64,000 bases of DNA from contig NZ_JAKNTW010000011.1 in the NCBI RefSeq assembly GCF_022213955.1, positions 248,001 to 312,000 of the forward strand, given 5' to 3'. Below the pieces are notes generated by a model. That model was not told the DNA's origin. It made no database searches and saw nothing but the letters and a program-made list of their open reading frames with translations. Position numbers and translations under genes: made by a program. Origin of the DNA: Dolomitihabitans soli (lineage in GTDB: Bacteria > Actinomycetota > Actinomycetes > Streptosporangiales > Streptosporangiaceae). Shown one piece after another: positions 14,665 to 31,188 of the stretch; within the stretch, counting starts at the first letter, position 1; the number at the start of each line of letters is the position of its first letter.

Positions 14665-15483
14665 CTACTCCAGCCCGGTCCCGACGACGCCTTTGATGTA
14701 CCACTTCTGAAACACGAGGAAGATGATCAGCACCGGCATCATGCTGATCACTGCCGCGGCCAGGCCGACGCTGGGCGACATCAGGGTGTATTGCCCCTGG
14801 GCAAGGGGCGCGAGCGCGACCGTCATCACCTGGTGCTCGCGGTCCGGCGCGACGACCTGCGGCCAGATGTAGGTGTTCCACGCGGTCAGGAAGCTGATCG
14901 AGCAATAGGCGGCCAGCGCCGGCCTGGCCAGCGGCAGCGCGATCAGGGTCAGGACGCGTGGCCAGCCCGCGCCGTCCAGCCGGGCCGCCTCGATGAGGCC
15001 CGCCGGCAGCCCCGCGAAGAACTGCCGGAACAGCAGCATCGCGAACGCCGTCTGGCCCGCTACTGGCAGGATCATGCCGGCGTAGGTTCCGACCAGGCCG
15101 AGCTGGTAGGTGATGATGTAGAGGGGGATCAGCGTCATGTTGGCGGGCACGAACATCGGCACAAGGATCACGCCGAGGAGCAGGCCCGTCCACCGAAACG
15201 GGATCGTCGCCAGAGCGAAGCCCGCCGGGATGGAGATCACCAGTTGCACGGCGACGATGCCGATGCTGAAGACGAACGAGTTGACGATGGCCCGTGCGGA
15301 GAGGAACTCGTAGGCCTCTACATAGTTGTGCCATACGACGTTCGGCGGCAGCAGGTGGGGTGGGAAGGCACGCGCGTCCTGCGCCGACATCAAAGACGCC
15401 GAGAGCAGGTAGAACAGCGGCGCCGCCATGAGCAGCCCGCACAACAGCAGCGTCGCGTATCGGACGAGGGTCCGGAGGGTCAT
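14665..15483 (-). CDS. Carbohydrate ABC transporter permease (MalG-like)
   Basis: 272 residues from the ATG at 15483 (MTLRTLVRYATLLLCGLLMAAPLFYLLSASLM); the longer open frame upstream is overlap with the other permease. Six transmembrane segments fit the MalG family. The EAA loop is LIEAARLDGAGWPRVLTLIALPLARPAL, and the C-terminus ends in the usual ...FLVFQKWYIKGVVGTGLE. ATGA overlaps the stop of the preceding permease. It is the last gene of the operon GH78, binding protein, permease, permease. No ATPase gene is nearby, so a shared MsiK-like ATPase is expected. Confidence 0.93.
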   Translation of the reverse strand: MTLRTLVRYATLLLCGLLMAAPLFYLLSASLMSAQDARAFPPHLLPPNVVWHNYVEAYEFLSARAIVNSFVFSIGIVAVQLVISIPAGFALATIPFRWTGLLLGVILVPMFVPANMTLIPLYIITYQLGLVGTYAGMILPVAGQTAFAMLLFRQFFAGLPAGLIEAARLDGAGWPRVLTLIALPLARPALAAYCSISFLTAWNTYIWPQVVAPDREHQVMTVALAPLAQGQYTLMSPSVGLAAAVISMMPVLIIFLVFQKWYIKGVVGTGLE

Positions 15484-16466: not shown

Positions 16467-17801
16467 TCACCCGCCGGTCGTCGCGAGCGCCTCGTTGACG
16501 GCCTTCTCCGCGTCGGCGAAGGCCTCGGCCACCGGCCGCTTCTTCAGTACGACCTCCTGCACCGCCTTGAGCACCTGCTCGTCGAGCACGCCCTGGGCCT
16601 TGCCGGGCAGTTGCGTCGCCAGTAGGGCGTTCTTGGCGGCGTCGGCGAAGACGGCGTTGTTGGACGGCGGCGCCTTCAGGTCCTTCCAGATGCCTTTCTC
16701 CAGGCCGTCCAGGGTCGGCGGGACGACCTGGCCGGTCTCCTGCGCGATCTTCATCCCGCCGTCGTTGCGGTAGAACCACGCGAGGAACGCCCACGCGGCG
16801 TCCTTGTTCTCGCTGGTCTGCGCGATGGACAGGCCGTAGGAGCCGCCACCGACGGTGGTCTTGCCGTTGATGGTCGGCATGACCTCGGCGTCCCAGTCGT
16901 CCTTCAGCTGGCTCTTGAGCGTGGGCACCCCGGCGCGGACACTGAAGGACATCGCCACCTGCCCGCGATCGAACTTGGGCAGCGAGGCCTCGTTGGCAGA
17001 GTACGCCGGCGACGCGGTGCCGTAGGCCTTGATGAGTTGCGTCCAGGCCTTGACCGCCTCCGGCTGGCCGATTCCAGACTTCTTGGTCTGCGCGTCGTAG
17101 ACGTAGCCTCCGTAAGCGTGAATCACCGGCGTGTAGATGGCGGGCTGGCCACCGGTGCGAAGCGGCGGCACCAGGCCGACGACGTCTCCTCCTGACTTGC
17201 TCTGGATCTCCGCCGCGACCCGGTACATGTCATCCCACGTCCAGGTGGGCTTCGGCAGCTCGGTCACGCCTGCCCGCTTGAAGGCGGTCCGGTTGTAGAA
17301 CAGCGTGACCGAGTCGGCGCTCACCGGCAGACCGGCGATCTGATCCGGCTTGGCGATCGGCCGATACTGTCCGACGAACTGCGGGAGGAACTCGCTGCCT
17401 TTCAGGCCGTCCTTGCCTTCCCCGAGCCACGGGGCCAGGTCCATGGTGACGTTGCCCGCTGCCAGCCGGTTGACCGCGTAGTCGACGTTCATCAGGACGT
17501 CGGGGAGCTTGTCGCCGAGCCGGGCGGTGACGAGCTGCTGGATGTACTGGGTGCCGTCGTCCGGCAACGACTCGACCGTCACCTTCCGCTTCGGGAAGGC
17601 CTGCTCGTAGGCCGCGGCGTACTTCTCGAACTGCGGGACCAGACCGGCCTGCATCGAGAGGGTGATGCTGGTGCTGCCGTCGACGGCGCCCGTTTCGCCC
17701 CCTTCGCCACCGCTGCATGCGGCGGCCAGGGTGAGCATCGGGACGAGGGCGGCGGCCAGGCCGCGGGTCCTCCATGGTGCGATGCGACTGATCATCTTCA
17801 A
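16467..17801 (-). CDS. ABC transporter sugar-binding lipoprotein
   Basis: 444 residues, solute-binding protein family 1. The lipobox is LTLAAAC (Cys29), so it is tethered to the outer face of the membrane. The body has the family pattern ITLSMQAGLVPQFEKYAAAYEQAFPKRKVTVESLPDDGTQYIQQLVTARLGDKLPDVLMNVDYAVNRLA and GGGSYGLSIAQTSENKDAAWAFLAWFY. It captures the oligosaccharide for the two permeases downstream. The gene lies 66 bp downstream of the GH78 gene with no operator in between, so it is read from the same promoter. Confidence 0.93.
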   Translation of the reverse strand: MKMISRIAPWRTRGLAAALVPMLTLAAACSGGEGGETGAVDGSTSITLSMQAGLVPQFEKYAAAYEQAFPKRKVTVESLPDDGTQYIQQLVTARLGDKLPDVLMNVDYAVNRLAAGNVTMDLAPWLGEGKDGLKGSEFLPQFVGQYRPIAKPDQIAGLPVSADSVTLFYNRTAFKRAGVTELPKPTWTWDDMYRVAAEIQSKSGGDVVGLVPPLRTGGQPAIYTPVIHAYGGYVYDAQTKKSGIGQPEAVKAWTQLIKAYGTASPAYSANEASLPKFDRGQVAMSFSVRAGVPTLKSQLKDDWDAEVMPTINGKTTVGGGSYGLSIAQTSENKDAAWAFLAWFYRNDGGMKIAQETGQVVPPTLDGLEKGIWKDLKAPPSNNAVFADAAKNALLATQLPGKAQGVLDEQVLKAVQEVVLKKRPVAEAFADAEKAVNEALATTGG

Positions 17802-17867: not shown

Positions 17868-20800
17868 TCAACAGGTACGTGGCGCACTGGTCCACCCCAC
17901 ATCGCCCATCCGGAACGGCAGGCTGGAGCGGCCCTCCTGCAGGTCGAGCGGAAGCGCCGGCCCTCTGGCCGAATCGGGCCGGTCCAGCCAGGCGACCCCG
18001 ACGGCCACTTCGACCACCCTCTCCCTGCCAGGCCATCGCGACAGGTCGACGCCGATCCTGTTCCAGCAGACGGGAAGCGGGCGGACGGTGTCCTGAACGC
18101 TGCTGCCGTCGGCTCCGGTCAACCGGAGTATCGGCACGATCGTGCGGCCGGGCAGCACCGGGAAGCACAGATCCACCTCCGCGAAGGCGAAGGCCGCGTC
18201 ACCGAGGTCGTCCCCGCCGGGGAGCGGCAGCCGTACCCATCGGGTCTGCCCTGGTGGAAGGGGCGGCCCGCTGACTTCGAAGGTCGGCCCAGGGAACGTT
18301 CCGTGGAAGACCGGCGTGCAGACGAACGTGCCGTGGAGGACGTCGAGCCGGACGCCAGGGCCGGCCGTCCAGCCGGGCGCCCTGACGCCGCGAGACAGCC
18401 AGCGAGCGGATCGTCCAGCGCGGACCACCCGGCGGGCGAGCGGCTCGCCGGCGGCGCCGCGGAGGACGACTTCGGCGCAGGACCCGATCGGCGCGCCGGG
18501 TGGCGCCTCGATCCGCAGTTCGTGCCCATCGAGGCGGGCCTTCCAGCCCGCGTCGGCGTCCGCGCTCACCGCGCCGCCTCTGAGCACCGCCGCGGTGACC
18601 ATTTGGCCCGGCGGCACGGGCGGTGTCCGGCCAATGGCCGGCCGCTCCTGAGCGAGGGGTATGCCGGTCGCCACGATGCGGTGCCGGCCGGATTCGTACT
18701 CCTGCGCCGGGCGGCCCGGCAGGTCGACCAGGGCCGTGCTGCCCACCGGGACGGTCAGCTCCAGCGTCAGCGTGTCGCCGTCGAGCCTCCAGCCGAGTGC
18801 GATCGTGCCGCGGACCGTCTCGACCGTGACATCGATCCTGGTCACCGGCCCGAGCAGGCGCGGCGCGACGACGAAGCGGCGATACCCCTCTGCCAGCGGC
18901 CGGATGCCCGCCACGTGCGTCCATGCCCAGGCGGCGAACGGCGCGGCGAGACCGATGTGGTCAAGCGAGGCGACACCGGCGTTCTCGTCGTCGATCCACC
19001 AGGTTTCCCAGAACGTACCTGGCCCCGTGGTGAGCATCGCGCCGATGCCGGGCTGCTCCGGCTGGCGCACCGCCGCGATCAGCGCCGTGCCGCCGTCGGC
19101 CTCCGCCATGGCTCGCACGAGTAACTGGGTGGCCGCGAACCCGGTCGACACCCTGTCGCCGCGGACACGCATGTCCACGCGGATCTGGTCGGCCAGAGCG
19201 CGCCGCTCCGCCTCGTCCGAGGCCAGCCCGGACGCCAGCGCGACGGCAGCGGAACCCTGGCCCGAGTCGGCCCACTCATGGGTGAGCGGATCGTGCAGCA
19301 CGGCCCTGGCCGTGCTCGCCAGCGCATCGGCCTCGCGCTCGCGCCGCGCGGCCTCGCAGCCGTCGCCTGCGACGGCCTCCAGTTCGGCCAGCGCGCGCAG
19401 GGAGCGGATGACGGCCGCGGTCTGCAGCATCACCGGCGAGGTGCGCTCGGGGGCGAGCCAGTCCGCGCCGTAGCTGATGTCAGCGCCCCTGACGACGCCG
19501 CCCGACAGCGTGCCGAGTTGCCAGTCGCACCAGCGGCGCATGGCCGGCAACAGCCGGATGATGAGCGTGTCGTCGCCGGTGTGCCGCCAGTGCTGGAGCG
19601 GGATCTCGGTCATCGCCGAGCCCCACACCGGGTCGGCGGGCTGGACGTGACGCGCTCCCAGCAGGTGCGGGGTCAATCCGAGGACGCCGCCGTCGGGGCG
19701 CTGGTCGGCCACCACGTCGTCGAGCCAGTGCCGATAGAGGCCGGCCATGTCGAGGTGGGAGAAGGCGGCCTCCGCCGACACCGACGCGTCACCGGTCCAG
19801 CCGCCCTGCTCGCGGGTGGGGCAGTCCTCCGGATGGGAGTGAGAGTTGTTGCGCTGAGTCCGTACCGCCATCGCCACGAGACGGTCCAGCAGCGGCTCGT
19901 CGCTCGCGAAAATGCCGGTGAGCGCGACGTCGGAGTGCAGCACCCTGGCAGTCACCTCGACGGCGGCGCCGGCCGGGACGCCGCGCACCTCGACATAGCG
20001 AAAGCCGTAGAACGCGAACCACGCCTCCGCGACGTCGACACCGCCGGCGCAGGTCCAGACCAGCACCTGCCGCTCCCGGTCCCGGTCGTCGGGCAGCCGG
20101 ATGTTGAGCGTCCCAACGCGGCCGGCGTCGTCGAGCTTCTCTCCGTGAACGATCTCGATCCTTGTACCGGGGGCGGCGCCGCGTACGACGACCCGGCTGC
20201 GCCCGGCCACGTTACGGCCGGCGTCGAAGACGAGGACTCCACCCGCGTCGTCGCATGGGATCGCCGCGATCTCCTCCACCACGGCGAGCGGCGGTCCGGC
20301 GTCGGGTGCGAGGGTGGCGACCGGCCGCTCAACCGCGCGCGCCGGCTCCCCTGCGACGCCTGTCCCGGCAGTGCCGCTGAATGTCCTGCGGGCGTCGTGC
20401 TCTTCAAGGTAGAAGGGGTCCTCGCGGATGACCGAGGAGGGGCCATGCCGCCAGTGCGGGCCGGTGCCCACCCGTACGACGCTGCCGTTGTCGAGCTCCA
20501 CCCGCAGCTCGACCAGGGCGCGTGGCTGGGCGAGCACCTGCCCGTAGTGGCCGATGCCGGCCACGACCGCCAGAGTGTGTCGGTTGCCGTCCCGCAGCAG
20601 TCCCGTGACGTCATAACTGCGGCTCGCCGCCCGGGATAACGCCGTGCGCGAGGGGTCGCTCGCATCGGGGTTGACCGCCTGCCCGTCGACCAGAACTCGT
20701 AACAGGCCCAGGCCGGCCAGGTGCAGGCGCGCTCGCCAGGCCCGGCACGCCGGATCCCAGGAGAACTCCTCGCCTGCCGCGTGTGTCGCCGGAATCTCGA

Positions 20801-21206
20801 TCCAGCGTGCCGTCCAGTCGTCCGCGGTCAGCGGCCCGGCGATCAGGTCCGTCTCATGCGCCCATGGCGAGAGCCTCGCGTGCTCGTCCCAGACCCTCAC
20901 GGTCCAGCGCAGGGCCGAGTGCGGCGCGACGGGCGGGCCGCCCCACCGCACGTGCGCGTTCCTGCCGGACTCGATCCGGCCGGAATCCCATACCGTGCCA
21001 TCCGCTGACGACGCCACGACCTGGTAAGCGGTCTGCCGCTGCCCCTGCCGCACCAGCGGAACCACCCACGACAGGCGGGGGTGGGCCGTCAGCACCACCG
21101 GCAACGCCCTGCCCGTGCGAGGGGGCCCCGCAGGGTGATCCTCCACACGGAGTCGGATCGGGGCGGGGCATGCCGCTTCATGTGGTTCGGTGGACGGGGG
21201 TGGCAC
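17868..21206 (-). CDS. GH78 alpha-L-rhamnosidase with extra C-terminal domain
   Basis: 1112 residues from a GTG at 21206, chosen for its GGAGG site five bases upstream; the open frame to 21635 runs through the operators and is not coding. The N-terminal half has the rhamnosidase beta domains (TAYQVVASSADGTVWDSGRI, TARWIEIP, YDVTGLLRDGNRHTLAVVAGIGHYG). DCPTREQGGWTGD at ~461 carries the general acid Glu, and GPGTFWETWWIDDENAG is the opposite catalytic region of the six-hairpin barrel. After the usual family end (residue ~860) there are about 250 further residues of beta-rich character that I do not recognise. There is no signal peptide, so it acts in the cytoplasm on imported rhamnosides. First gene of an operon with the ABC transporter. 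Confidence 0.9.
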   Translation of the reverse strand: MPPPSTEPHEAACPAPIRLRVEDHPAGPPRTGRALPVVLTAHPRLSWVVPLVRQGQRQTAYQVVASSADGTVWDSGRIESGRNAHVRWGGPPVAPHSALRWTVRVWDEHARLSPWAHETDLIAGPLTADDWTARWIEIPATHAAGEEFSWDPACRAWRARLHLAGLGLLRVLVDGQAVNPDASDPSRTALSRAASRSYDVTGLLRDGNRHTLAVVAGIGHYGQVLAQPRALVELRVELDNGSVVRVGTGPHWRHGPSSVIREDPFYLEEHDARRTFSGTAGTGVAGEPARAVERPVATLAPDAGPPLAVVEEIAAIPCDDAGGVLVFDAGRNVAGRSRVVVRGAAPGTRIEIVHGEKLDDAGRVGTLNIRLPDDRDRERQVLVWTCAGGVDVAEAWFAFYGFRYVEVRGVPAGAAVEVTARVLHSDVALTGIFASDEPLLDRLVAMAVRTQRNNSHSHPEDCPTREQGGWTGDASVSAEAAFSHLDMAGLYRHWLDDVVADQRPDGGVLGLTPHLLGARHVQPADPVWGSAMTEIPLQHWRHTGDDTLIIRLLPAMRRWCDWQLGTLSGGVVRGADISYGADWLAPERTSPVMLQTAAVIRSLRALAELEAVAGDGCEAARREREADALASTARAVLHDPLTHEWADSGQGSAAVALASGLASDEAERRALADQIRVDMRVRGDRVSTGFAATQLLVRAMAEADGGTALIAAVRQPEQPGIGAMLTTGPGTFWETWWIDDENAGVASLDHIGLAAPFAAWAWTHVAGIRPLAEGYRRFVVAPRLLGPVTRIDVTVETVRGTIALGWRLDGDTLTLELTVPVGSTALVDLPGRPAQEYESGRHRIVATGIPLAQERPAIGRTPPVPPGQMVTAAVLRGGAVSADADAGWKARLDGHELRIEAPPGAPIGSCAEVVLRGAAGEPLARRVVRAGRSARWLSRGVRAPGWTAGPGVRLDVLHGTFVCTPVFHGTFPGPTFEVSGPPLPPGQTRWVRLPLPGGDDLGDAAFAFAEVDLCFPVLPGRTIVPILRLTGADGSSVQDTVRPLPVCWNRIGVDLSRWPGRERVVEVAVGVAWLDRPDSARGPALPLDLQEGRSSLPFRMGDVGWTSAPRTC

Positions 21207-21233
21207 GGAACCTCCACATCGACGCCGAGAGGG

Positions 21234-21249
21234 ATTGAAACATTTCAAT
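21234..21249. promoter_or_regulatory. LacI operator 1 (TTGAAA-N2-TTTCAA)
   Basis: Perfect 16-bp palindrome ATTGAAACATTTCAAT, 28 bp upstream of the GH78 start. One of five related sites around the GH78/esterase locus. It probably controls the GH78-ABC operon. Confidence 0.8.
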
Positions 21250-21325
21250 GCCCGCACAGTAGACGGTGACCTTGGTGAGGTCAACAGGTTCGCGCACCGG
21301 ATCGACGTCTGTACAGGTAAATGAG

Positions 21326-21337
21326 TGAAACCTTTCA
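21326..21337. promoter_or_regulatory. LacI operator 2
   Basis: TGAAACCTTTCA: both five-base half-sites match the others, but the central two bases differ. It lies 50 bp ahead of the lacI-type gene, suggesting autoregulation, and is about 90 bp from operator 1. Confidence 0.65.
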
Positions 21338-21387
21338 ATTTGATATACTGGTCCAGCCAAGCTGTGAGCTGAAAGGGTATCCACGGG

Positions 21388-22473
21388 GTGTCCGATATCG
21401 ACAGACCGAGCAAGACCTCGACGAGCGGCTCCGACGGAGAGCGCGCCCGGACGCGCCTCAGCATGGTCGACGTGGCCGCGCACGCCGGAGTGTCGCTCGG
21501 CACCGTCTCCAATGTGCTCAACCGCCCCGAGCTGGTGGCGGAGCGGACCCAGCGACGGGTCCGCTCCTCCATCGCCGCCCTGGGTTTCGTGCCCAACGCG
21601 CCGGCGCGGCAGCTGCGCGGAGGCCGAAGCCGCACGGTGGGGGTGGTGGTGCGCGAAATAGGCAGTCCCTACTTCAGCGAGATACTGCCGGGCATAGAGA
21701 GCAAGCTGGCCAAGGAGCAGTTCCTGCTGATGGTTTGCAGTTCCGACGACTCTCCCGACAAGGAGGCCTACTACCTGAAGACCCTTGAGGAGCATCGGGT
21801 CGCCGGCATCCTCATCTCGCCGGCAGGCGACGACATCGAGCACCTCATCGAACTCCGGCAGCGCGGAGTGGGGGTCGTGCTCCTGGACCGGCTCGGTGTC
21901 GGCTCTCAGCTGTGCGCGGTGGCCGTGAACAACGTCCAGGGAGGTGACCTGGCCGGTGACCACCTCTTCTCACTCGGCCACCGCCGCATCGGCTTCCTCA
22001 ACGGGCCCTCCACGGTCAGGCAGTGCGCCGACCGCAGGGAAGGGCTGCACCGCGCGGCGCGCCGGGCGGGGCTCGACCCCGACGAGGCGATCAGCGAGAT
22101 CACTCTGTCCGTGCTCAACGCCCAAGGCGGCGAGACAGGGCTGGCCCAGCTGCTCGACGACGGACGCAGGCCGTCAGCGATCTTCTGCATCAACGACATG
22201 GTCGCCGTCGGCGTCCTGCGCGACCTGGCGAAGCGCGGGATCGCCGCACCCGGCGAGATGAGCGTGGTGGGGTACGACGACGTCGAGTTCGCCGCCCTGC
22301 TGTCACCGGCGCTGACCTCGATCCGCATGCCGAAGCAGCAACTCGGTCAGGCCGCCGCCGAGCTCCTGGTCACCGACTTTCGCGCGGACGACAACCACTG
22401 GCACCAGGAGATCGTCTTCCAGCCCGAGCTCATCATCCGCGCATCCACCGCGCCCCCGCCTACCTCAGGGTAG
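21388..22473 (+). CDS. LacI family regulator of the rhamnoside locus
   Basis: 361 residues from a GTG start. The HTH is LSMVDVAAHAGVSLGTVSNVLNRPELVAERTQRRVRSSIAALGFVPNAPARQLRGGRSRTVGVV, and the hinge leads into a periplasmic-binding-like domain (SPYFSEILPGIESKLAKEQF, LAGDHLFSLGHRRIGFLNGP, FCINDMVAVGVLRDLAKRGIAAPGEMSVVGYDDVEFAALLSPALTSI). It is divergent from the GH78-ABC operon, and two palindromes of TTGAAA type lie in the shared gap. Three more precede the second GH78/esterase pair and the six-hairpin glycosidase. The likely effector is rhamnose or a rhamnosyl oligosaccharide, by inference from targets. Confidence 0.92.
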   Translation: MSDIDRPSKTSTSGSDGERARTRLSMVDVAAHAGVSLGTVSNVLNRPELVAERTQRRVRSSIAALGFVPNAPARQLRGGRSRTVGVVVREIGSPYFSEILPGIESKLAKEQFLLMVCSSDDSPDKEAYYLKTLEEHRVAGILISPAGDDIEHLIELRQRGVGVVLLDRLGVGSQLCAVAVNNVQGGDLAGDHLFSLGHRRIGFLNGPSTVRQCADRREGLHRAARRAGLDPDEAISEITLSVLNAQGGETGLAQLLDDGRRPSAIFCINDMVAVGVLRDLAKRGIAAPGEMSVVGYDDVEFAALLSPALTSIRMPKQQLGQAAAELLVTDFRADDNHWHQEIVFQPELIIRASTAPPPTSG

Positions 22474-22533: not shown

Positions 22534-25500
22534 CTACTCGGCCCGGTCCTCCTCGCCCCCGGCGTTCCTCTTGATCCCGGTGCGGAACGCGTACGAGCCC
22601 GAACCGATCCGGTAGACCGCGGCTCCGCCGTCGAGCCGGTCGAAGGCCACGCACTCGGCCTCGATGGCCGGCACGCCGCCCTCGGTCACCCGCTCCGGCG
22701 GCGCGGGCACGTGTACCTCGGCGCGGGTATTGGGCGGCACGACGACGTCCAGGGCGAAGCCGTCGCCCTCCAGCCGCCAGGAGATCTCCACCCTGCCGTG
22801 CCTGGTGCGGTGCGCGGTTCTCGCCCAGCCGATCCCTCCGCCGGGGCGGGGGTGCACGACGATGTCGGCGTACCCCGGCGACCCTGGGGCCAGCCCGCCG
22901 ACCGTCCGGTACATCCAGTCGCCGACGGCCCCATAGGCGTAGTGGTTGAAGGAGTTCATGGCCGGGTCCTGCAGCCCACGGTGGTGGCTCCAGGAGTCCC
23001 AGCGCTCCCACATGGTCGTCGCGTCGCCGTGCACGACCGGGTAGAGCCACGAAGGGAAGGTGTCCTGCGTCAGCAGCCGGTAGGCCACGTCCAGCCGCCC
23101 GGTCGAGGTGAGCGCGTCCAGCAGGTACGGCGTGCCGAGGAAACCGGTCGACAGGTGATCGCCGCGTGCCTCGATGTCGCCGGTCAGCCGGGCCACGGCC
23201 CTGGGCAGCTCGTCCTCCTCCAGCAGCCCGGCCATGATGGCCAGCACGTACGCGGTCTGCGTCTTGCTCACCAGCACGCCGGGCCCCTCGATGAAGGCCG
23301 CGCGGAACGCCCGCCGTACGTGCCCGTACAGCTCCAGACAGGCCCGCTCGTCCGCGTCGCGGCCGAGCACGGCGGCGAGTTCGGCGAGTTGCCGGGCGGA
23401 CAGAGCGAAGATCGCCGTGCCGACGAGCCGTTTGGGGGTCTCGGCGCCGATCGACAGCCAGTCGCCGAACCCCTCCTCGGGGAAGATCCCACCGTCGGAG
23501 CGTTTGTCCAGGTACGCCAGCCAGCGCAGCATCGGCTCGAAGCAGGCCGCCACCACCCCGGTGTCGCCGCGCAGCCGGTGCAGAGCCCACGGCAGCATCA
23601 CCAGCGCGTCGCCCCAGCCGGGCGAGCCCGCCTCCTTGGCGTTGGGCGACGAGCCGCGGCCCGACAATACGTCGGGCACCACGTGCGTGACCGCGCCGTC
23701 GTCGCCCTGCGCGTCGACCACGTCGGCCAGCCAGCTCCGCAGGAAGGCGGCGGCGTCGTAGTTGAACAGCGCGGTGGGCGCGAACGCCCAGATGTCACCC
23801 GTCCAGCCCAGCCGCTCGTCACGCTGCGGACAGTCGGTGGGGACGGCCAGGAAGTTGCCCCGCTGCCCCCACACGATGTTGCGCTGCAACCGGTCGAGCC
23901 GCTCGTCGGAGCAGGTGAACTCCCCCACCGGCTCCATCGCGGCGTGTGCCACCCTGGCCGTGATCGCCTCCGGCGCCGCGCGCAGCCCCGACACCTCCAC
24001 GTAGCGGAACCCGTGGAAGGTGAACCTCGGCTCGAACGTCTCCAGCTCCTCGCCACGCGGCAGGAACTCGTCCGTCGCGCGGGCCGAGCGCAGGTTGGCC
24101 AGGTGCAGCCCGCCCTCATGGTCGAGGACCTCGGCGTGCCGCAGCACCACCGGGCGGTCGCGGCCGGCGCGGCCGGTGAGCCGGACCCAGCCGACCAGGT
24201 TCTGCCCGAAGTCGGCGATCCACACGCCGGGCCGCCGCTCCCACACCGCCACCGGCTCCAGCTCCTCGTGCACCCGGATCGGCGGCGCGACGGCGGCGGT
24301 CAACCGGCCGGCGGGCGGGCTGACGGGCACCGCGGGCACCCAGCCGGAGTCGTCGAACCCGGCCGCCGTCCAGCCGAGCGGCTCGGCCGCCAGATCCTGC
24401 CGCTCGCCGTTCTGCAGGTCGGCGTAGCGGATCGAGCCCGAGGCGGCCCGCCATTCCGAGTCGGTGCGCAGCCGGGTGACGCCGCCGTCGTCGTGCAGGA
24501 TCTCCAGCTCGGCGCGGAAGGCCAGGCGCCGGCCGTAGTGGAAGGGGCCGAACCAGCTGATGTTGCCCGCGTACCACCCGTCGGCGAGAATCGCGCCGAG
24601 CGCGTTGTGCCCCTCCGACACCAGTTCCGTGACGTCATAGGTCTGGTACGTGACACGGTGGCGATAGTCGGTCCAGCCGGGGGCCAGGTGGTCGTCGCTC
24701 ACTTTGGTGCCGTTCAGGTGGATCTCGTAGACGCCGAGCGCGGTGGCGTACAGCCTGGCCCGGCGCACCGGTGACGGCACGCCGAACTCGCGCCGCAGGT
24801 AGGGGCTGGGCCGGTCGCCGATCGGCTCGCGACCCAGCGGTGGGTCGCCGTGCAGCCCCACCTCCTCGGCCAGCGGCCACGCCGCGTCGTCGAACCCGGA
24901 CTGCTCGAACCCGTCGCCGGGCCGGTCACTGGCCCGCCACCGGCCACCGGACGTGACGGTCACGGCGCTCTCCCCGGCCACCGGCACGTGTTGCGGCAGC
25001 ACCTGCCGTCCCTCGGCCACGACCTCCAGCCGCACGCACAGCCCCGAGCCTGCGGCCCTGATCGCGAGCACGTTCTCGCCCGAGGCCACCAGGTCACCCG
25101 CGTCGGCCACGAACGCCCCTTCCCGCCTCTCCCCCGCGAGCGGCACGCCGTTGACGTACGCCTCGACCTCGGCGGCGCCGCCGATCATCAGCCATGCCGA
25201 CAGCGGCCTGGCCCCGCCCGGCACCACGAACCGCGTCCTGAACGCCCCCGTCTCCGAGCCGGACGGCCCGAGCCGGTCGGCGACCCAGATACGCGGCACG
25301 TTCTCCAGCGACGGCAACCGCTGCGACCCGGGCACCACGGGCGTACCGATCCAGCCCGCCGTCCACCCGGTGGCATCGCCGAGACCGGTCTCGAACCAGG
25401 ACGCCGGGCCCCAGCCCGTCCACGTGCCACTCTCGTCGGCCACCTTGACCCGCCACTGGTAGCGCGTACGGGGCCGGAGCTCAGCACCGCCGTACGGGAG

Positions 25501-25719
25501 GTCGTAAGTCGCGGCCGAGGTCACGATGCCGCTGTCCCAGACCACCTCGGCTCCCTCGGCGGCCGGATCGCACTCTCGTCCCACGATCAGCCGGTACGCG
25601 CTCTGTGCCCGCCCGCGGCCGGCCCCGGTGATCCGCCAGGAGAACTCCGGCGCACTCGCGTCAAGACCCAGGGGTTCGGCCAGTCCTTCCACGCGCATAC
25701 CAGTCACGGCTAGATGCAT
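22534..25719 (-). CDS. GH78 alpha-L-rhamnosidase
   Basis: 1061 residues with the full GH78 layout. Bac_rhamnosid_N/Ig-like part: MRVEGLAEPLGLDASAPEFSWRITGAGRGRAQSAYRLIVG. Lectin-like jelly roll: RLYATALGVYEIHLNGTKVSDDHLAPGWTDYRHRVTYQTYDVT, the family signature. DFGQNLVGWVRL follows. The six-hairpin catalytic barrel has DCPQRDERLGWTGDIWAF (general acid Glu) and GDATTMWERWDSW (base Glu). C-terminal beta sandwich: YADIVVHPRPGGGIGWARTAHRTRHGRVEISWRL. No signal peptide, so it is cytoplasmic. It is divergent from the esterase gene, and the shared gap has two LacI-type operators. Confidence 0.95.
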   Translation of the reverse strand: MHLAVTGMRVEGLAEPLGLDASAPEFSWRITGAGRGRAQSAYRLIVGRECDPAAEGAEVVWDSGIVTSAATYDLPYGGAELRPRTRYQWRVKVADESGTWTGWGPASWFETGLGDATGWTAGWIGTPVVPGSQRLPSLENVPRIWVADRLGPSGSETGAFRTRFVVPGGARPLSAWLMIGGAAEVEAYVNGVPLAGERREGAFVADAGDLVASGENVLAIRAAGSGLCVRLEVVAEGRQVLPQHVPVAGESAVTVTSGGRWRASDRPGDGFEQSGFDDAAWPLAEEVGLHGDPPLGREPIGDRPSPYLRREFGVPSPVRRARLYATALGVYEIHLNGTKVSDDHLAPGWTDYRHRVTYQTYDVTELVSEGHNALGAILADGWYAGNISWFGPFHYGRRLAFRAELEILHDDGGVTRLRTDSEWRAASGSIRYADLQNGERQDLAAEPLGWTAAGFDDSGWVPAVPVSPPAGRLTAAVAPPIRVHEELEPVAVWERRPGVWIADFGQNLVGWVRLTGRAGRDRPVVLRHAEVLDHEGGLHLANLRSARATDEFLPRGEELETFEPRFTFHGFRYVEVSGLRAAPEAITARVAHAAMEPVGEFTCSDERLDRLQRNIVWGQRGNFLAVPTDCPQRDERLGWTGDIWAFAPTALFNYDAAAFLRSWLADVVDAQGDDGAVTHVVPDVLSGRGSSPNAKEAGSPGWGDALVMLPWALHRLRGDTGVVAACFEPMLRWLAYLDKRSDGGIFPEEGFGDWLSIGAETPKRLVGTAIFALSARQLAELAAVLGRDADERACLELYGHVRRAFRAAFIEGPGVLVSKTQTAYVLAIMAGLLEEDELPRAVARLTGDIEARGDHLSTGFLGTPYLLDALTSTGRLDVAYRLLTQDTFPSWLYPVVHGDATTMWERWDSWSHHRGLQDPAMNSFNHYAYGAVGDWMYRTVGGLAPGSPGYADIVVHPRPGGGIGWARTAHRTRHGRVEISWRLEGDGFALDVVVPPNTRAEVHVPAPPERVTEGGVPAIEAECVAFDRLDGGAAVYRIGSGSYAFRTGIKRNAGGEEDRAE

Positions 25720-25742: not shown

Positions 25743-25756
25743 TTGAAACATTTCAA
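25743..25756. promoter_or_regulatory. LacI operator 3
   Basis: Perfect palindrome TTGAAACATTTCAA, 24 bp upstream of the second GH78 gene. Confidence 0.8.
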
Positions 25757-25831: not shown

Positions 25832-25845
25832 CTGAAACATTTCAA
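25832..25845. promoter_or_regulatory. LacI operator 4
   Basis: CTGAAACATTTCAA, one base off the perfect palindrome, centred 89 bp from operator 3 in the gap between the second GH78 gene and the esterase. Spacing near 89-90 bp, as also seen between operators 1 and 2, would allow looping. Confidence 0.7.
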
Positions 25846-26065
25846 CATGGAGATTAGGCATCTCTGCCAGGTGACCAGAAGGGGCTGTCCGCCGGTGACC
25901 GACATCCTCAAGCCGGCCGAGCGTACCCTCGACACCTGCCTTCTTCTCCTGGCCGGAGCTGCGTAAGCCGCTGCCGCCCCGGTCGTTCGTCCAACGAGCT
26001 TGACGGGTCGCGGTCAATCGGTTCAGCAAATCTCCCTAACCTTTCGCGGGGTAAGGTGCCGAAGC

Positions 26066-26842
26066 ATGATCGACATTCCGCTCTGGCCGGCAACTCCCCC
26101 GGGCCCGGCTACCGGTGAACCGCCGAGCCTGACGCTGTACGCGGCGAACGGCCCGGCCACGGGTGCGGTTGTGGTGTGCCCAGGCGGCGGTTACGCCGGG
26201 CTGGCCGGGTACGAGGGCGCGGACGTGGCCCGCTGGCTGGTCACGCTGGGCATCGACGCCTACGTGCTCCAATACCGGGTGGCCGGAGCCGGGCCGGGGA
26301 GCGAGCCGCTGCATCCGGCTCCGCTGTACGACCTGCGCCAGGCGGTGCGCGTCGTCCGGGAACGCGGGACCTCGCGGGTCGCCGTCATGGGGTTCTCCGC
26401 GGGCGGCCACCTCGCCGCCACCCTCGCCACCTCGAAAGACGGGGAGCGCCCGGATGCCCTGGTGCTCGGGTACCCGGTCATCGACCTCACCGGGTCGCGC
26501 GCGCGCTCCGGGTCGCGCCGCAGGCTGCTCGGCGCCGACAGCACCGAGGAGCAGGCGAGGGCCCTGTCCGCCCACCTCAACGTGACCGCCGAGACGCCGC
26601 CCACGTTCCTCTGGCACACCGCGGCCGACGAAGGGGTCCCGGCCGAGAACAGCCTGTTGTTCGCCGCCGCACTCGCCCGCGCCGGAACACCGTACGAGCT
26701 ACATGTCTTTCCCGAGGGCGAGCACGGGCTCGGGCTCGCCCAGAGCGGACTGGCCGCATCCGCCTGGCCTGGCCTCTGTGCCACCTGGCTCGCTGCCCAT
26801 GGCTTCGGCCCCCCGCCCATGAGCTTGCCACGTAAGGTCTGA
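26066..26842 (+). CDS. Alpha/beta hydrolase (acetyl-xylan-esterase-like)
   Basis: 258 residues from the ATG at 26066 (MIDIPLWPATPPGPATGEPPS); the open frame reaches further up, but family members begin near here and GGTAAGG lies upstream. VVVCPGGGYAGLAGYEGADVARWLVTLGIDAYVLQYRV is the oxyanion part, VAVMGFSAGGHLAATLA the nucleophile elbow (Ser in GFSAGG), and LVLGYPVIDL follows. FLWHTAADEGVPAENSLLFAAAL and VFPEGEHGLGLA supply the Asp and the His. This subgroup often removes acetyl groups from plant polysaccharide fragments, which fits a rhamnogalacturonan-type substrate. Cytoplasmic. Probably under the LacI operators shared with the GH78 gene. Confidence 0.88.
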   Translation: MIDIPLWPATPPGPATGEPPSLTLYAANGPATGAVVVCPGGGYAGLAGYEGADVARWLVTLGIDAYVLQYRVAGAGPGSEPLHPAPLYDLRQAVRVVRERGTSRVAVMGFSAGGHLAATLATSKDGERPDALVLGYPVIDLTGSRARSGSRRRLLGADSTEEQARALSAHLNVTAETPPTFLWHTAADEGVPAENSLLFAAALARAGTPYELHVFPEGEHGLGLAQSGLAASAWPGLCATWLAAHGFGPPPMSLPRKV

Positions 26843-27321
26843 TCTGCGCATTTGCCGCTCCCTGGACCGGGCCGACCTCGTCACGGAGCTCGCCGCAGCG
26901 TGCCCGGCGTCACGAACAACCGCCGGCGACCGGCTGGAGACGGCAGACGCGCCGGCGCGCTGAGCACCGCCCGATCCGCCCACGACGGCCGAGGCCTTGC
27001 CACCTGCCGACGGGGTCTGTCCAGTAAACCGTACGGTCCCGCTCCTGGCTGGTGCCGTGATGGTGACAGGTAGTTGCCTGGAGCAATTTCAGCGGCGGCG
27101 GCGGAGATCTCGACTGCGATCCGCGTTGCCGCCGGCTCGCCGGTCGGCTACGAGAAATGGCCACATTCGTCACATGGTTGACAGTGCTCGGCTCGTCTGT
27201 GACCCTAATTGAAAGCTTTCAAGTCGACTGCTAGTTGCCGTTCCGGCGCTCGCTCAGACGACGTCATTGCGTGCTTCGAGCCGCGAACACCACTACCACG
27301 ATCGAGCGACTGGAGACCTCC
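26843..27321. other. Intergenic region with operator, no gene recognised
   Basis: About 480 bp between the esterase and the six-hairpin glycosidase. Apart from the LacI operator at 27209-27222, I see no coding sequence, RNA gene or repeat. Confidence 0.5.
27209..27222. promoter_or_regulatory. LacI operator 5
   Basis: Perfect palindrome TTGAAAGCTTTCAA, 100 bp upstream of the GTG of the secreted six-hairpin glycosidase. It shares both half-sites with operators 1, 3 and 4 and differs only in the central dinucleotide. Confidence 0.75.
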
Positions 27322-30300
27322 GTGGCCACGGACAGCACGCGATTCCGCACGAGTCGGCGCATCTTCCTCCAGGGAGCGGGCAGTGGCCTGCTCCTTGCCG
27401 CGAGCGGCCTGTGGCGCACCCCCCAGGCCGCTGCCGCGGCAGAGGCCGCGACGTACCAGCTCGAAAACAAGTTCATCAGTCTCTCCGGCGCGTACGGAAA
27501 ACTCACCCGATTCGCGTGCGATCCGACGGGCTCCGGCCAGTACGAACCCACGGTGTTCGGCTCGGTGTTTCTCGGCGCGACCGACTTCTTCGACGCCGGT
27601 TTCAACAATGGCGTCACCTGCACGGCGAGCGACACAGCGCTGAGCCTGGCGGGTATCCAAATGCCGTCGACGATGAACCTTGAACAGCGGCAGCTCAACT
27701 CCCCCGTCCCGCTCAGCGCCGGGCAGACGCTCGGCCAGTCGTTCACCGCGACGATGTACCGCTTCTCCCGAGTCGGTGGCCAGTTCCCCACCTGGAGCAG
27801 CCAGAACTCGGCGTTGACGATGACGCTCTACGCGGGAACTCCCGAGACCGGTCTCACCGAGATCGTCAGTCGCGAGGTGAACCCGGTGCAGGACAACGGA
27901 TGGGCCTACCTCGATGTGCCGGATCAGCCGGCTGGGGCCTACTACCTGGAGATATCGCACCATTCGGGAACGCCCGGCTGGTGGAGCCGGCTCGGCGACA
28001 CCACGGTCGACGTGGGCGGATCGGCATACAACAATCGTCAGGTGCAGGCGGATCGCACGATGACGATCGAGGTCGCGGGTTTCAACGTCGACGGCATCGC
28101 GTCGTGGGATCTAAAGCTCTCCGGCCGGAACCTGACGATGACGTACGACATTCAGTGGCAGAACGAACCACGGTCCGACCCCGGCCTGACGCTCAACACG
28201 TCGTGGCTCCGCGACGGATACTCCGTCGCCGCAGCGGACGGCGTCCTGTTCAACCGCTTCTACGGAGACCGCGGCGACTACATGCCCGCCCAACAACTGA
28301 AGCGTCGAGACGCCTGGACGAACCCGGTGTCGGGATCGAAGGCGGTCACAGCGAGCGGCAGCGGCCCGTACGACCTCCAGATCACGGGCACCGAACCGGT
28401 CCTCGACGGCACGATGACCGCCGAGTCGATGGCGATGACGCTCAACTCCGGCAGCGCGGACACGGAGCAGGCCATCTCGCGATCGCTCGCGGTGGAAGTC
28501 CAGCCGCATTCCGACGCACTGCCGGAGGTCTTTCCGGTTTTCGTGGCATCCGATCAGCACAGGGCGACGCAGCTGTCCACCTTCTACTGGGAGCGTGCGC
28601 TCAGCTACCGGTTCAGCGGGCACGCCATGGACTGGGCCGACTGGGAGGGGCGCATCCTGGACTGGACCGCCACGGCGGGCTCCAAGGCACAGGCCGATTC
28701 CCTGTTGAGCACGCGACTGGAAGAGGACGGGTACGTCTGGTCATGGCCGGATTCGCCGGCGTGGCCCTTCCCCGACCCGACTCTCTTCGACGCTAGACAC
28801 TTCACGTCCAATGCCATGTACATCCTCGGCGCCTGGCGTTACTACTCGTGGACGGGAGACTCCGAATTCCTCGCCACGATGCTGCCGCGAGTACGGCGTG
28901 CGATGAGCTTCTATCTCGACTCACTCGACGGAAAGAGTGGGATTGTCACGATCACGTCGCCCGACCACAGCGGACGGGACGGATCGCTGGCCTCCAACTA
29001 CTGGGACATCACGTCGTTCGGCTATCAAGACGCCTATCTCAACGCCTACTTCTACGGGGCCCTCGAGGCGATGGCTCAGCTCGAGGATCACGTCGGAAAC
29101 GCGACGATCGCGGACGAGCTGAGGTCGGTGCGCCGGCAAGCCCGGCAGCGCTACAACCAGGTGTTCTGGAACGACGCGGCGGGCAGGTACGTCCAGACCA
29201 TCGACGCCGACGGCGTCGCTCACGACTACGGCTCGACCTACGTCAATCTCGAAGCGGCGTCGTTCGGTCTCCCCACCGAGAAGCAGGCCGCGCGCATCTT
29301 CGACTGGCTCGACAACGGCCACACCGAGCTGCAGGATGCGGTCGTACTGATCGAGAGCGGCGGCCTGGCACCGACGATCGGAGCGGGCCACTCGCTGGGG
29401 CAGAGCTTCACGGCGAACGCCGAATTCACGAGCGTCGCCGCGCGATTCCCCACCTACGGCAAGCGCGGTGCCGCGTTCACGATGGCGTTCTACCAGGGGC
29501 TGCCGGGCGAGACGTCGGTCAAGATCGCGGAACAGCGGTTCACCGACTGGAGCGACGGCCAGGTAGCGCACATCGATCTGCCGAAGCAGCCACCCGGCGT
29601 GTACTACCTGGAGGTCTCACAGGTCACGGGCACGCTCGCGTGGTGGTCGTCGGCGACAACCGTGCCGGGGGCGACGGCGTATTCCGACGGGCGTCCCGCA
29701 TCGGATGCCTCGACCAGGTTCGTCGTAGCACTCGGCGACTACGTCGAGGGACCCGCCGACATCTACTCGAAGTGGGTGTTCGCCCCGAGGTCGACGACGC
29801 GCCGCAACAGCTACTGGTTCTTCCTGACCCACCTCACGACTCCCTGGGGAGACGAAGTGCAAGATGGCGGAGCCATCCTCTACACCTCGGGATTCGACGT
29901 GATGGCGCGCGCCCGCTATCGATCCGCCGATGATGCCTGGGCGCGGATGACGACGATCCTCGATCGGTGGAGCGAACCCGACCACATCTGCGGCGGCGCT
30001 CCCCTGTTCCGCGGCGAGAGCACGGTCGGCAGCCCGGGCGGGAGCTCGGTCGGAACCGATATCCCGTTCCCGGAGAGCGGACTGGCACCAGCCAGTTTCC
30101 TGTACGCCTTCATCGGGGTCGAAGCCGAGCCGGATGCTCTGGTCATCACCCCGAACCTCCCTTCGAAGCTGGACAATGCCGGCGTACGTCACCTCCGCTG
30201 GCGCGGACGCCAGCTCGACCTGCTCGTGACACGCACCACGGTCACCCTCACAGGCAACGGACTGGCGATCAAGCGGCGGTACAAGCCGGGCCATTCGGTG

Positions 30301-30327
30301 CGCGTGCCGTCAAGTGAGCTGGAGTGA
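27322..30327 (+). CDS. Secreted six-hairpin glycosidase-like protein with duplicated beta module
   Basis: 1001 residues from a GTG at 27322 with TGGAG seven bases upstream. The Tat-type signal is TSRRIFLQGAGSGLLLAASG, then an Ala-rich cleavage region. Residues ~131-253 and ~686-806 are two copies of one module: G-Q/H-S/T-LGQSFTA, then QFPTW/RFPTY, MTLYAGTP/MAFYQGLP, then AGAYYLEISHHSGTPGWW/PGVYYLEVSQVTGTLAWW. Between them is an (alpha/alpha)6 hairpin domain (YYSWTGDSEFLATMLPRVRRAMSFYLD, NYWDITSFGYQDAYLNAYFYGALEAM). The tail EPDALVITPNLP and LDNAGVRHLRWRGRQLDLLV is typical of such glycosidases. I cannot assign a CAZy family. It probably attacks an extracellular rhamnose-containing glycan and feeds the transporter. 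Confidence 0.8.
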   Translation: MATDSTRFRTSRRIFLQGAGSGLLLAASGLWRTPQAAAAAEAATYQLENKFISLSGAYGKLTRFACDPTGSGQYEPTVFGSVFLGATDFFDAGFNNGVTCTASDTALSLAGIQMPSTMNLEQRQLNSPVPLSAGQTLGQSFTATMYRFSRVGGQFPTWSSQNSALTMTLYAGTPETGLTEIVSREVNPVQDNGWAYLDVPDQPAGAYYLEISHHSGTPGWWSRLGDTTVDVGGSAYNNRQVQADRTMTIEVAGFNVDGIASWDLKLSGRNLTMTYDIQWQNEPRSDPGLTLNTSWLRDGYSVAAADGVLFNRFYGDRGDYMPAQQLKRRDAWTNPVSGSKAVTASGSGPYDLQITGTEPVLDGTMTAESMAMTLNSGSADTEQAISRSLAVEVQPHSDALPEVFPVFVASDQHRATQLSTFYWERALSYRFSGHAMDWADWEGRILDWTATAGSKAQADSLLSTRLEEDGYVWSWPDSPAWPFPDPTLFDARHFTSNAMYILGAWRYYSWTGDSEFLATMLPRVRRAMSFYLDSLDGKSGIVTITSPDHSGRDGSLASNYWDITSFGYQDAYLNAYFYGALEAMAQLEDHVGNATIADELRSVRRQARQRYNQVFWNDAAGRYVQTIDADGVAHDYGSTYVNLEAASFGLPTEKQAARIFDWLDNGHTELQDAVVLIESGGLAPTIGAGHSLGQSFTANAEFTSVAARFPTYGKRGAAFTMAFYQGLPGETSVKIAEQRFTDWSDGQVAHIDLPKQPPGVYYLEVSQVTGTLAWWSSATTVPGATAYSDGRPASDASTRFVVALGDYVEGPADIYSKWVFAPRSTTRRNSYWFFLTHLTTPWGDEVQDGGAILYTSGFDVMARARYRSADDAWARMTTILDRWSEPDHICGGAPLFRGESTVGSPGGSSVGTDIPFPESGLAPASFLYAFIGVEAEPDALVITPNLPSKLDNAGVRHLRWRGRQLDLLVTRTTVTLTGNGLAIKRRYKPGHSVRVPSSELE

Positions 30328-30355
30328 GACGCGGAACGCTGCGCCTGGCCGAGTA

Positions 30356-30379
30356 GCCGGGGGCATCGCAGCCCCCGGC
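30356..30379 (+). terminator. Strong GC hairpin terminator
   Basis: Perfect 9-bp stem GCCGGGGGC / GCCCCCGGC with a six-base loop, 29 bp after the stop of the six-hairpin glycosidase. It has no T tract. Confidence 0.65.
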
Positions 30380-30544
30380 CCTCACAGATCCGGACGTGAC
30401 AGTCTCCTGTCATCCGGCTCGTGCCGTCCCTGCTGTCGGGTCAGTAGCGCAGCGCCCAGTGCGCGAACAGCCTCGGAGCAGTGTCCTGAACCCGTCGCAG
30501 CCAATTCTTTGCGCGCCTGTTGCTGCGTTTCAGTCGCTTGTACT

Positions 30545-30602
30545 TACCACCACGCCGCTTAACCGCAGCTCAGACCACGTAACGCAATATTCGAGCGGCA
30601 CA
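30545..30602 (+). repeat. IS right-end fragment, identical to 38275-38332
   Basis: 58 bases identical to the end of the IS copy at 37801-38332, in the same orientation. In that copy the first bases encode the last residues of the transposase (TyrHisHisAlaAla-stop) and the rest is the non-coding IS end. Only this end is left here. Confidence 0.8.
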
Positions 30603-30605
30603 GGG

Positions 30606-30995
30606 CTAATTCTGTGTCGACTTCTCTGTGGCGTCCTTCTCGGTCTTGGGCTTGTTGATCCAGGCAGGGCCGGGCAGGTCGGGCGGGGTGGGGAGGCCGC
30701 CGCTGGCGAACCGTTCGGGGTGGGCGGCTTGGGCACCGGCCAACACGGCGGCGCGCCGGTCGCGGACGGAGGCGGCGCGCCCGTAGTGCACGTCAACCGG
30801 GTGGTGGTAGCCGATCCCGGAGTGAAAGTGATCACGGTTGTACCAGGTGTAGAAGTCCTGGCTGAAGGCGCGGGCGTCTTCGATGGAGCCGAACCGGCCG
30901 GGGAAGTCGGGACAGTACTTGAGGGTCTTGAAGCTGGCCTCGACGTGCGGGTTGTCGTTGGCGGTCTTGGGCCGGGAGTGGGACTTGGCCACACC
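30606..30995 (-). pseudogene. IS3-type transposase OrfB, C-terminal fragment
   Basis: The reverse strand reads HSRPKTANDNPHVEASFKTLKYCPDFPGRFGSIEDARAFSQDFYTWYNRDHFHSGIGYHHPVDVHYG, the end of an rve/DDE integrase core, with NDNPHVEASFKTLKY holding the third acidic residue. It ends AHPERFASGGLPTPPDLPGPAWINKP. The N-terminal part with the first two Asp residues is lost at about 31000, where the promoter region of the next LacI gene begins. Confidence 0.75.
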
Positions 30996-31093
30996 TTGAA
31001 GCGGTACACCCCACTCGGGCCCGTGAGCGCCCGAGCCGTCGCGGCCGGCGGATGCGGGGTGGCCACGGGCGGAAACGAGCGTGAAACAAGCCC

Positions 31094-31126
31094 TTGACAA
31101 GAGGTGTCTCCGGAATCGAGAGTAAT
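31094..31126 (+). promoter_or_regulatory. Probable promoter of the second LacI-ABC-GH42 operon
   Basis: TTGACA at 31094-31099, and GAGAGT at 31118-31123 after 18 bases, is the best -35/-10 pair. The two operators lie immediately downstream, a layout that would block RNA polymerase. Confidence 0.45.
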
Positions 31127-31137
31127 GGGCATCCCAG

Positions 31138-31188
31138 CCTGACTACGTAGTCAGGCAACAGATCTTCCCTGTCTGACTACGTAGTCAG
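31138..31188. promoter_or_regulatory. Two LacI operators (CTGACTACGTAGTCAG)
   Basis: Site A is CCTGACTACGTAGTCAGG (31138-31155), a perfect 18-bp palindrome. Site B is CTGACTACGTAGTCAG (31173-31188), a perfect 16-bp palindrome. Their centres are 34 bp apart, about three helical turns, on the same DNA face. They lie just upstream of the lacI-type gene at 31204 and differ fully from the TTGAAA sites, so the two LacI proteins should not cross-regulate. Confidence 0.82.

Follow-up and report, generated by a model that had tools for sequence, protein, structure and literature searches.

Plants, algae, and bacteria commonly make glycans that contain rhamnose, and the enzymes acting on these are most often recognized through family GH78. 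A gene at positions 27322–30327 (plus strand) of a 64,000-nucleotide stretch of Dolomitihabitans soli DNA (the window) encodes a predicted secreted six-hairpin enzyme of 1001 residues with two copies of one module. We consider it somewhat probable that this protein is a glycoside hydrolase exported by the Tat route, with a split barrel and modules resembling carbohydrate-binding modules (CBMs), and that it performs the extracellular first step of a LacI-regulated cluster for utilization of L-rhamnose-containing glycans. The sequence features behind this reading are the architecture of the protein, its family, its conserved gene company, a common palindrome, and the presence of the module at one constant position in ten GH78 enzymes.

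Export signal and domain architecture

The frame at 27322–30327 is free of stops and is already open from 27235; the GTG start was placed at 27322 because a Tat motif follows. This Tat-type signal region (27322–27441; end set by eye) carries an arginine pair at residues 12 and 13. R12, R13, F15, and L16 (RR.FL) are invariant among 14 aligned family members, which are 68–96% identical, and PF10518 matches 6 of the 14. All domains that follow lie on the plus strand. The N-terminal β-domain comes in two parts (residues 45–116, 27454–27669, and residues 254–405, 28081–28536) separated by module copy 1 (residues 117–253, 27670–28080). A six-hairpin barrel likewise has a first part containing the invariant D553 and D562 (residues 406–668, 28537–29325) and a last part containing the invariant D848 (residues 806–935, 29737–30126), with module copy 2 (residues 671–805, 29332–29736) in between. 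A GH65-type C-terminal β-domain (residues 938–977, 30133–30252) is recognized by PF03633 (27.1 bits, cut-off 22). Both modules were delimited by self-alignment and a module HMM, assisted for copy 2 by a structure model of the module. The first part of the barrel was defined by Pfam and comparison with a GH78 profile, with limits by eye, and the last part by identity to six relatives. The N-terminal β-domain was drawn from strands in a low-confidence whole-protein model built from six sequences (mean pLDDT 39.5), with the module HMM boundary closing its first part and limits by eye for its second.

Alignment of the first 450 residues against the remainder gave one strong match, in which residues 131–260 and 685–811 share 37% identity (E = 5.4e-22). 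When copy 2 was shuffled 1000 times, no score exceeded 61, versus 213 observed. The duplication is visible in the DNA as well, as 77 nucleotides at 71% with a spacing of 1662. An HMM located both copies in 14 of 14 members, which bears out the preliminary description of one module present twice. That description had also placed the copies on both sides of the barrel, which proved incorrect, as copy 2 interrupts the barrel and copy 1 the N-terminal β-domain. Copy 2 was placed inside the barrel because the PF22422 match is partial (residues 468–661, stopping at model position 262 of 356, ahead of the copy), more helices follow the module in the low-confidence model, and region 806–935 beyond it shows the highest conservation among six regions compared (81–99% identity to six relatives). 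The splitting of the N-terminal β-domain by copy 1 is a low-confidence prediction of the same model. In a tree of module copies (26 rows, excluding the L016 copies, a spurious match in L077, and fragments shorter than 105 residues), each copy forms its own clade; the test did not reject a common clade (p = 0.41), and a long-branch warning applies to the tree. The two copies may have arisen by duplication within the enzyme or by two separate entries.

Relation of the module to known domains

Thirty module sequences yielded no convincing match in Pfam, NCBIfam, or the PDB, in agreement with the earlier description of the module as unnamed. Candidates judged unconvincing in these 30 sequences include MG2 (best 0.0015, two members), PPC (0.0075, four members; 0.00025 in 1 of the 14 whole proteins), SpaA_2 (0.019), DUF4082 (0.055), the adhesin model NF045619 (0.00067, seven members), and TIGR02270 (0.001). 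To judge from sequence, the module may be distantly tied to PPC. The 30-module profile did not retrieve 3w5m, the structure of the CBM67-containing rhamnosidase SaRha78A, up to E = 10; the module and CBM67 may be distantly related.

Copy 2 is modeled as a β-sandwich (pLDDT 73.7), and its top Foldseek match is a CBM, 7zvo, at a non-significant E of 7.6e-3. This CBM6/35-like domain, BT0996-C, superimposes on the module model with Z 7.5 and an rmsd of 2.5 over 97 residues in VIA; ten VIA rows outrank it, up to Z 10.2, none of them named as a CBM and with a viral capsid, PHR domains, and phage fibers included. SaRha78A is absent among the best 50 VIA matches, which shows nothing by itself. The ligand of BT0996-C is polygalacturonic acid, and the domain is described in PMC9843283 as part of an enzyme that degrades RG-II.

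In a viral structure library, one row fell below 0.001 for the module, a nameless protein at E = 6.2e-4. Two partial module matches (E = 1e-4, 49 residues) were seen in viral contigs, with no reading frame tied to them, and the whole enzyme had no match in these contigs. PADLOC returned nothing. In the literature on new enzyme or module families, surveyed at the level of listings, none was found that names this enzyme.

Module hosts outside the enzyme family

The module also occurs in 16 hosts outside the enzyme family, ten of which are GH78 α-L-rhamnosidases. In all ten, one of them archaeal, it lies between Ig_Rha78A_N and Bac_rhamnosid_N. This position corresponds to the CBM67 slot, since SaRha78A of Streptomyces avermitilis carries its rhamnose-binding CBM67, which acts in a calcium-dependent manner, between the same two domains, after the N-terminal one. 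In the archaeal enzyme, module residues 185–336 occupy the place of SaRha78A residues 127–313. The other six hosts show no sequence link to rhamnose. They comprise two GDPD-type and two unassigned proteins from two genomes, and a GH99-like and an unassigned protein at a Kribbella locus that shares the palindrome and importer.

The distribution of hosts bears on whether the module would bind sugar. A structural spacer or protein-docking domain would be in keeping with the lack of a significant CBM match, the GDPD proteins among the hosts, and the faint likeness of a few members to PPC, MG2, and adhesin models. Such a role is nevertheless rather unlikely, as the module fills the CBM67 slot in ten rhamnosidases, enzymes of glycan clusters make up most of the hosts seen, and one tryptophan of the WW pair is invariant across the 30 module sequences. 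A sugar-binding function is the reading retained here.

Barrel family and candidate catalytic residues

Three barrel models and the GH65 C-terminal model pass their Pfam cut-offs on the window protein. The best barrel match is the MGH1-like PF22422 (49.7 bits, cut-off 27), followed by DUF608/GH116 (40.3 bits, cut-off 26.3; residues 497–626 only), both of which match all 14 members. PF17389, the model of the GH78 barrel, just exceeds its threshold (25.3 bits, cut-off 24.5; residues 498–625 only) and matches 13 of 14. Because these four models pass their cut-offs, the barrel is assigned by sequence to the six-hairpin hydrolases, but to no one family. The preliminary description had found no nameable family for the barrel; the six-hairpin fold and the lack of a single named family stand, but the barrel does have relatives.

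The MGH1-like (GH63-type) match covers model positions 37–262 of 356, the remainder being split off by module 2, and profile comparison with two full-length members from the same genome is weak (14.5%, E = 0.0019). For GH116, the best structure match is at E = 0.0059. Proteins of other phyla with a similar QDGGA stretch may form a larger family. A third comparison is with the GH121 β-L-arabinobiosidase HypBA2, by its description likewise an extracellular six-hairpin enzyme, whose gene cluster includes a transporter (PMC7263609). HypBA2 is a retaining enzyme and has other neighbors. HypBA2, together with top barrel models that are not rhamnosidases, would fit a new six-hairpin hydrolase that clears a non-rhamnose sugar, such as a decoration of L-arabinose, galactose, or uronic acid, off the glycan that the GH78 enzymes would then attack. 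We regard this as unlikely, given that the module is mainly common to rhamnosidases (10 of the 16 outside hosts).

Profile comparison of the enzyme family with GH78 gives 90–91% (E about 1e-6), and the closest solved structures are GH78 enzymes (3cih, E = 2.8e-7; 2okx, E = 0.011). However, Ig_Rha78A_N, Bac_rhamnosid_N, Bac_rhamnosid, and the GH78 C-terminal domain were all missing from the window enzyme in Pfam searches up to E = 10. A two-domain GH78 enzyme exists (PMC4690510), so missing companion domains are a non-strict criterion. In a single profile alignment, the GH78 general acid position aligns with R444, an arginine invariant in 14 of 14 members. The neighboring GH78b has the RxERxGWTGD-type motif that we take to carry this acid. 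The α-L-rhamnosidase mechanism cannot be transferred to the window enzyme because the acid position is an invariant arginine. By sequence, the barrel thus departs from GH78, SaRha78A included, in both companion domains and general acid; the profile alignment stops short of the region of the TTMWERW-type general base glutamate. A divergent GH78-fold enzyme that still removes terminal L-rhamnose, with modules merely replacing CBM67, would agree with the marginal PF17389 score, the nearest structures, and the module shared with GH78 enzymes, but is quite improbable in view of the higher-scoring MGH1-like and GH116 models, the four missing domains, and R444.

For an active hydrolase barrel of its own kind, D553, D562, and D848 are candidate catalytic residues; all three are invariant among the 14 members. 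In the weak MGH1-like alignment, SGRD (D553) aligns with SGMD, and the GH63-type general acid lies in an insertion before helix 6. Our best guess is that D553 or D562 is the acid and D848 the base.

Gene cluster and putative regulation

The enzyme gene lies in a cluster with a LacI-family regulator (21388–22473, plus strand), an α/β-hydrolase esterase of the BD-FAE/S9 type (26000–26842, plus strand), and two GH78 α-L-rhamnosidases on the minus strand, all recognized by Pfam. GH78b (22534–25719) aligns end to end with SaRha78A (3w5m, E = 9e-255). GH78a is placed at 17868–21235; its frame, searched over 17868–21635, is open to 21635, and its real start probably lies below the palindrome at 21236. 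Neither has an export signal by eye, suggesting that both would act inside the cell. An ABC solute-binding protein (16467–17801, minus strand) is 38–61% identical to proteins of related loci (its counterpart at the L114 locus is PF01547), and an ABC sugar permease (15480–16433, minus strand), named by reading, is 53–67% identical to the closest proteins at those loci. In the fetched surroundings of family members, GH78 genes are near 13 of 14, the exception being L111.

Operator-like palindromes accompany these genes. One (TGAAAGCTTTCA, 27210–27221) is upstream of the enzyme, two are between GH78b and the esterase gene (25744–25755 and 25833–25844), one is between GH78a and lacI (21236–21247), and one is upstream of lacI (21326–21337). 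The LacI-type palindrome TGAAANNTTTCA occurs 5 times in the window versus 0.01 expected, and the 10.8-Mb genome has six copies, five of them in the cluster, compared with none for a reversed control. The sixth has no recognized glycan gene nearby, as judged from reading frames. The palindrome is present at 13 of 14 family loci (L112 is without an exact copy) and lies within 200 nucleotides upstream of the enzyme at 11 of 14. These counts strengthen the earlier suggestion of co-regulation with the rhamnosidase genes. The importer genes of the window follow GH78a and have no palindrome of their own.

In Actinomycetales, the LacI-type RhaR co-regulates uptake and rhamnosidase genes, according to PMC3870299, and RhaR regulons likewise bring together a LacI regulator, an ABC importer, and rhamnosidases. 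As in such regulons, a common palindrome attends the regulator, rhamnosidase, and importer genes, with LacI binding putative here. The RhaR passages of PMC3870299 mention no comparable six-hairpin enzyme. The palindrome was not found as letters in the literature searched.

Proposed function and significance

In the proposed pathway, the enzyme would be a glycoside hydrolase, so far assigned to no family, that leaves the cell by the Tat route and has a split (α/α)6 barrel, and its two inserted β-sandwich modules would form an undescribed CBM family that keeps it on the glycan. The barrel would cleave a rhamnose-containing glycan outside the cell, the ABC importer would take up the fragments, and GH78a and GH78b would remove L-rhamnose inside. 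Rhamnogalacturonan and rhamnan, suggested earlier, are candidate substrates. The cluster LacI would repress the genes via the TGAAANNTTTCA palindrome until released by a pathway sugar.

A broader reading, put forward tentatively and at somewhat less than even chances, is that the enzyme represents a new glycoside hydrolase family and the module a new, mobile carbohydrate-binding family, which directs its hosts to a glycan that contains rhamnose and for whose breakdown outside the cell no enzyme of this type is known. On the same reading, the module would have found its way into four or more dissimilar kinds of protein (twice into the six-hairpin enzyme, into GH78 at the site of CBM67, and into GH99-like and GDPD proteins) in actinobacteria and a haloarchaeon.

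A conserved secreted enzyme without an assigned family, tied to rhamnosidases by its neighborhood and by a near-private palindrome poses a directly testable substrate question, and the module offers a searchable marker. Where the module sits in GH78 points to a second way of doing what CBM67 does, unrelated to CBM67 by the sequence tests made. Both enzyme and module are worth testing as new families, since unrelated microbes, an archaeon among them, also carry the module in enzymes that remove rhamnose.

Architecture of the six-hairpin enzyme

The open reading frame at 27322-30327 (+) translates to a six-hairpin enzyme of 1001 residues that carries one module twice. Alignment of its halves pairs residues 131-260 with 685-811 at 37% identity (E 5.4e-22), and the score of 213 against a maximum of 61 in 1000 shuffles bears out the duplication noted in the preliminary description. 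The module HMM sets the limits of copy 1 at 117-253 and of copy 2 at 671-805. Two copies are present as described, but they do not flank the barrel as had been supposed; they split the beta domain and the barrel, because the PF22422 match ahead of copy 2 extends only to model position 262 of 356, and residues 806-935, after copy 2, are the most conserved of six regions compared (81-99% identity to six relatives). The domain order is a Tat-type signal, a beta domain with copy 1 inside, the six-hairpin barrel with copy 2 inside, and a GH65-type C-terminal domain. Signal residues R12, R13, F15 and L16 are invariant in the alignment of all 14 members, and a Pfam scan matches PF10518 in six. The whole-protein model has a mean pLDDT of 39.5, too low to display domain splitting in space.

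At 30348-30422 (-), 21 nt past the stop codon, the Rfam scan matches a group II intron (55.4 bits against a cut-off of 40), and beyond it, at 30530-31132 (-), comes a frame judged transposase-like by reading. These are mobile-element remains separating the rhamnosidase cluster from the next, where the palindrome TGACTACGTAGTCA occurs twice at 31140-31187, just upstream of a second LacI gene (31204). Genes for a solute-binding protein, permeases and a GH42 beta-galactosidase come after it, and the whole is probably a separate regulon.

The barrel and its candidate catalytic residues

The barrel had been placed outside any nameable CAZy family. No single family fits it by the tests made, but it does have relatives, as evidenced by four Pfam models above cut-off in the window enzyme: MGH1-like PF22422 (49.7 bits, cut-off 27) and DUF608 (40.3, cut-off 26.3), each reaching E <= 0.001 in 14/14 members, GH65 C-terminal (27.1, cut-off 22; 11/14) and the GH78 barrel (25.3, cut-off 24.5; 13/14). 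The nearest solved structures are GH78 enzymes (3cih, E 2.8e-7; 2okx, E 0.011), and a profile comparison with eight GH78 proteins, of which five are Pfam-confirmed and three were included for their likeness, reaches 91% and 90% at E values of about 1e-6. The profile alignment puts R444, invariant in all 14 enzymes, at the GH78 general acid position. Taken together, these results indicate kinship with several families.

D553, D562 and D848 are invariant in 14/14 members, as are other acidic residues; naming them as catalytic is a guess. D553 aligns weakly with the SGMD loop of GH63-type enzymes, and the GH63 general acid is located in the barrel part holding that loop, according to PMC7263609.

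Distribution and genomic surroundings

A scan of 84,980 genomes yielded five loci with close relatives, and module profile searches brought eight more enzymes: a single one from the 394 genomes searched in the class to which genome G538 belongs, six from 299 in the family of G538, and one from 38 in the Kribbella family. With the window enzyme these make 14, the others being 68-96% identical to it. Among 149 related genomes, own included, no full-length match occurred beyond the window's own, and a profile search over 396 genomes from the phylum recovered the window's own protein, its remaining hits being partial ones in the barrel or C-terminal domain plus a single hit in the module. The reading frame of the Pseudolysinimonas copy (L020) is broken close to the C-terminus, at about 10800-10978. 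In both Kribbella loci with the enzyme, a protein of 805-817 residues adjoins it (L017, 5297-7747 (-); L019, 5348-7762 (-)); the two are 89% identical, and a scan of the L017 protein gave no Pfam match above cut-off.

Within surroundings ending at about 8-10 kb, GH78 matches accompany 13 of the 14 enzymes (the exception is L111), LacI gene matches nine and solute-binding protein matches ten. For the palindrome TGAAANNTTTCA, 0.01 occurrences would be expected in the window, which contains five. The 10.8-Mb genome holds six sites, five of them in this cluster, and no match to the reversed control; the probability of five of six falling within one given 6-kb stretch is 3e-16, for a stretch picked after the fact. 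The palindrome is present at 13/14 loci (all but L112), and at 11/14 it precedes the enzyme by no more than 200 nt. A LacI-type RhaR together with an importer and rhamnosidases is known in Actinomycetales (PMC3870299).

Another Kribbella locus (L114, 2535-10093) shares TGAAANNTTTCA and encodes a solute-binding protein of 61% identity. Here the six-hairpin enzyme is replaced by module-bearing proteins, GH99-like and of no assigned family, and 17 kb of sequence contain no match to GH78. L114 may reach the same substrate by a different route.

The module and its hosts

The module was rightly left unnamed: searches with 30 sequences from 22 proteins brought up nothing convincing in Pfam or NCBIfam, where PPC, MG2 and an adhesin model gave the best rows, and no solved structure was matched by the module profile (best E 0.62). 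The copy 2 model, built from 12 sequences, is a beta-sandwich (pLDDT 73.7, pTM 0.75). Its top Foldseek row is the CBM BT0996-C (E 7.6e-3), no PDB row falling under 0.001. VIA gives Z 7.5 and rmsd 2.5 over 97 residues against BT0996-C, and Z up to 10.2 against non-CBM chains. The modeled fold is CBM-like and is proof of nothing further.

The 30 module-bearing proteins looked at, which exclude the weak matches in genomes G301 (E 2.7e-4) and G1143 (E 6.8e-4) and two viral contigs, comprise 14 six-hairpin enzymes, ten GH78 proteins, two GDPD-type proteins (one by Pfam, a near copy by likeness), two proteins of no assigned family (L081, L082), and one GH99-like protein and one of no assigned family at L114. 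This sample leans to actinobacteria, other phyla being sampled through a plasmid collection only. In two genomes (L086, L087, L081, L082) the module lies near the N-terminus both of the GDPD-type protein and of a nearby protein of no assigned family.

All ten GH78 copies sit between Ig_Rha78A_N and Bac_rhamnosid_N. In an archaeal GH78 protein (Natrinema, L021), residues 185-336 lie opposite residues 127-313 of the Streptomyces avermitilis enzyme SaRha78A, a stretch where 6i60 has some 25 residues and which in SaRha78A is presumably occupied by CBM67. CBM67 is a SaRha78A domain that binds rhamnose with calcium, according to PMC4690510. At L114, the module region is what distinguishes two similar GH99-like genes, both of which score below the PF16317 cut-off. 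The module thus travels, mostly but not solely with rhamnosidases.

Proposed role

Searches of Pfam, NCBIfam, solved structures and the literature, with CAZy itself outside the comparison, found no description of the module or the family. What is new is a predicted six-hairpin hydrolase that, judged from its sequence, lies outside assigned families and carries an undescribed module. The alignment of GH78b with SaRha78A spans their full length. No export signal was seen by eye in GH78a, GH78b or the esterase, so the six-hairpin enzyme would be the cluster's one exported hydrolase. Its modules would bind a glycan that the enzyme may cut outside the cell, and the importer and GH78 enzymes would complete the use of that glycan. 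A known case from bifidobacteria is GH121, a six-hairpin enzyme that works outside the cell and is encoded in a cluster that also includes a transporter (PMC7263609).
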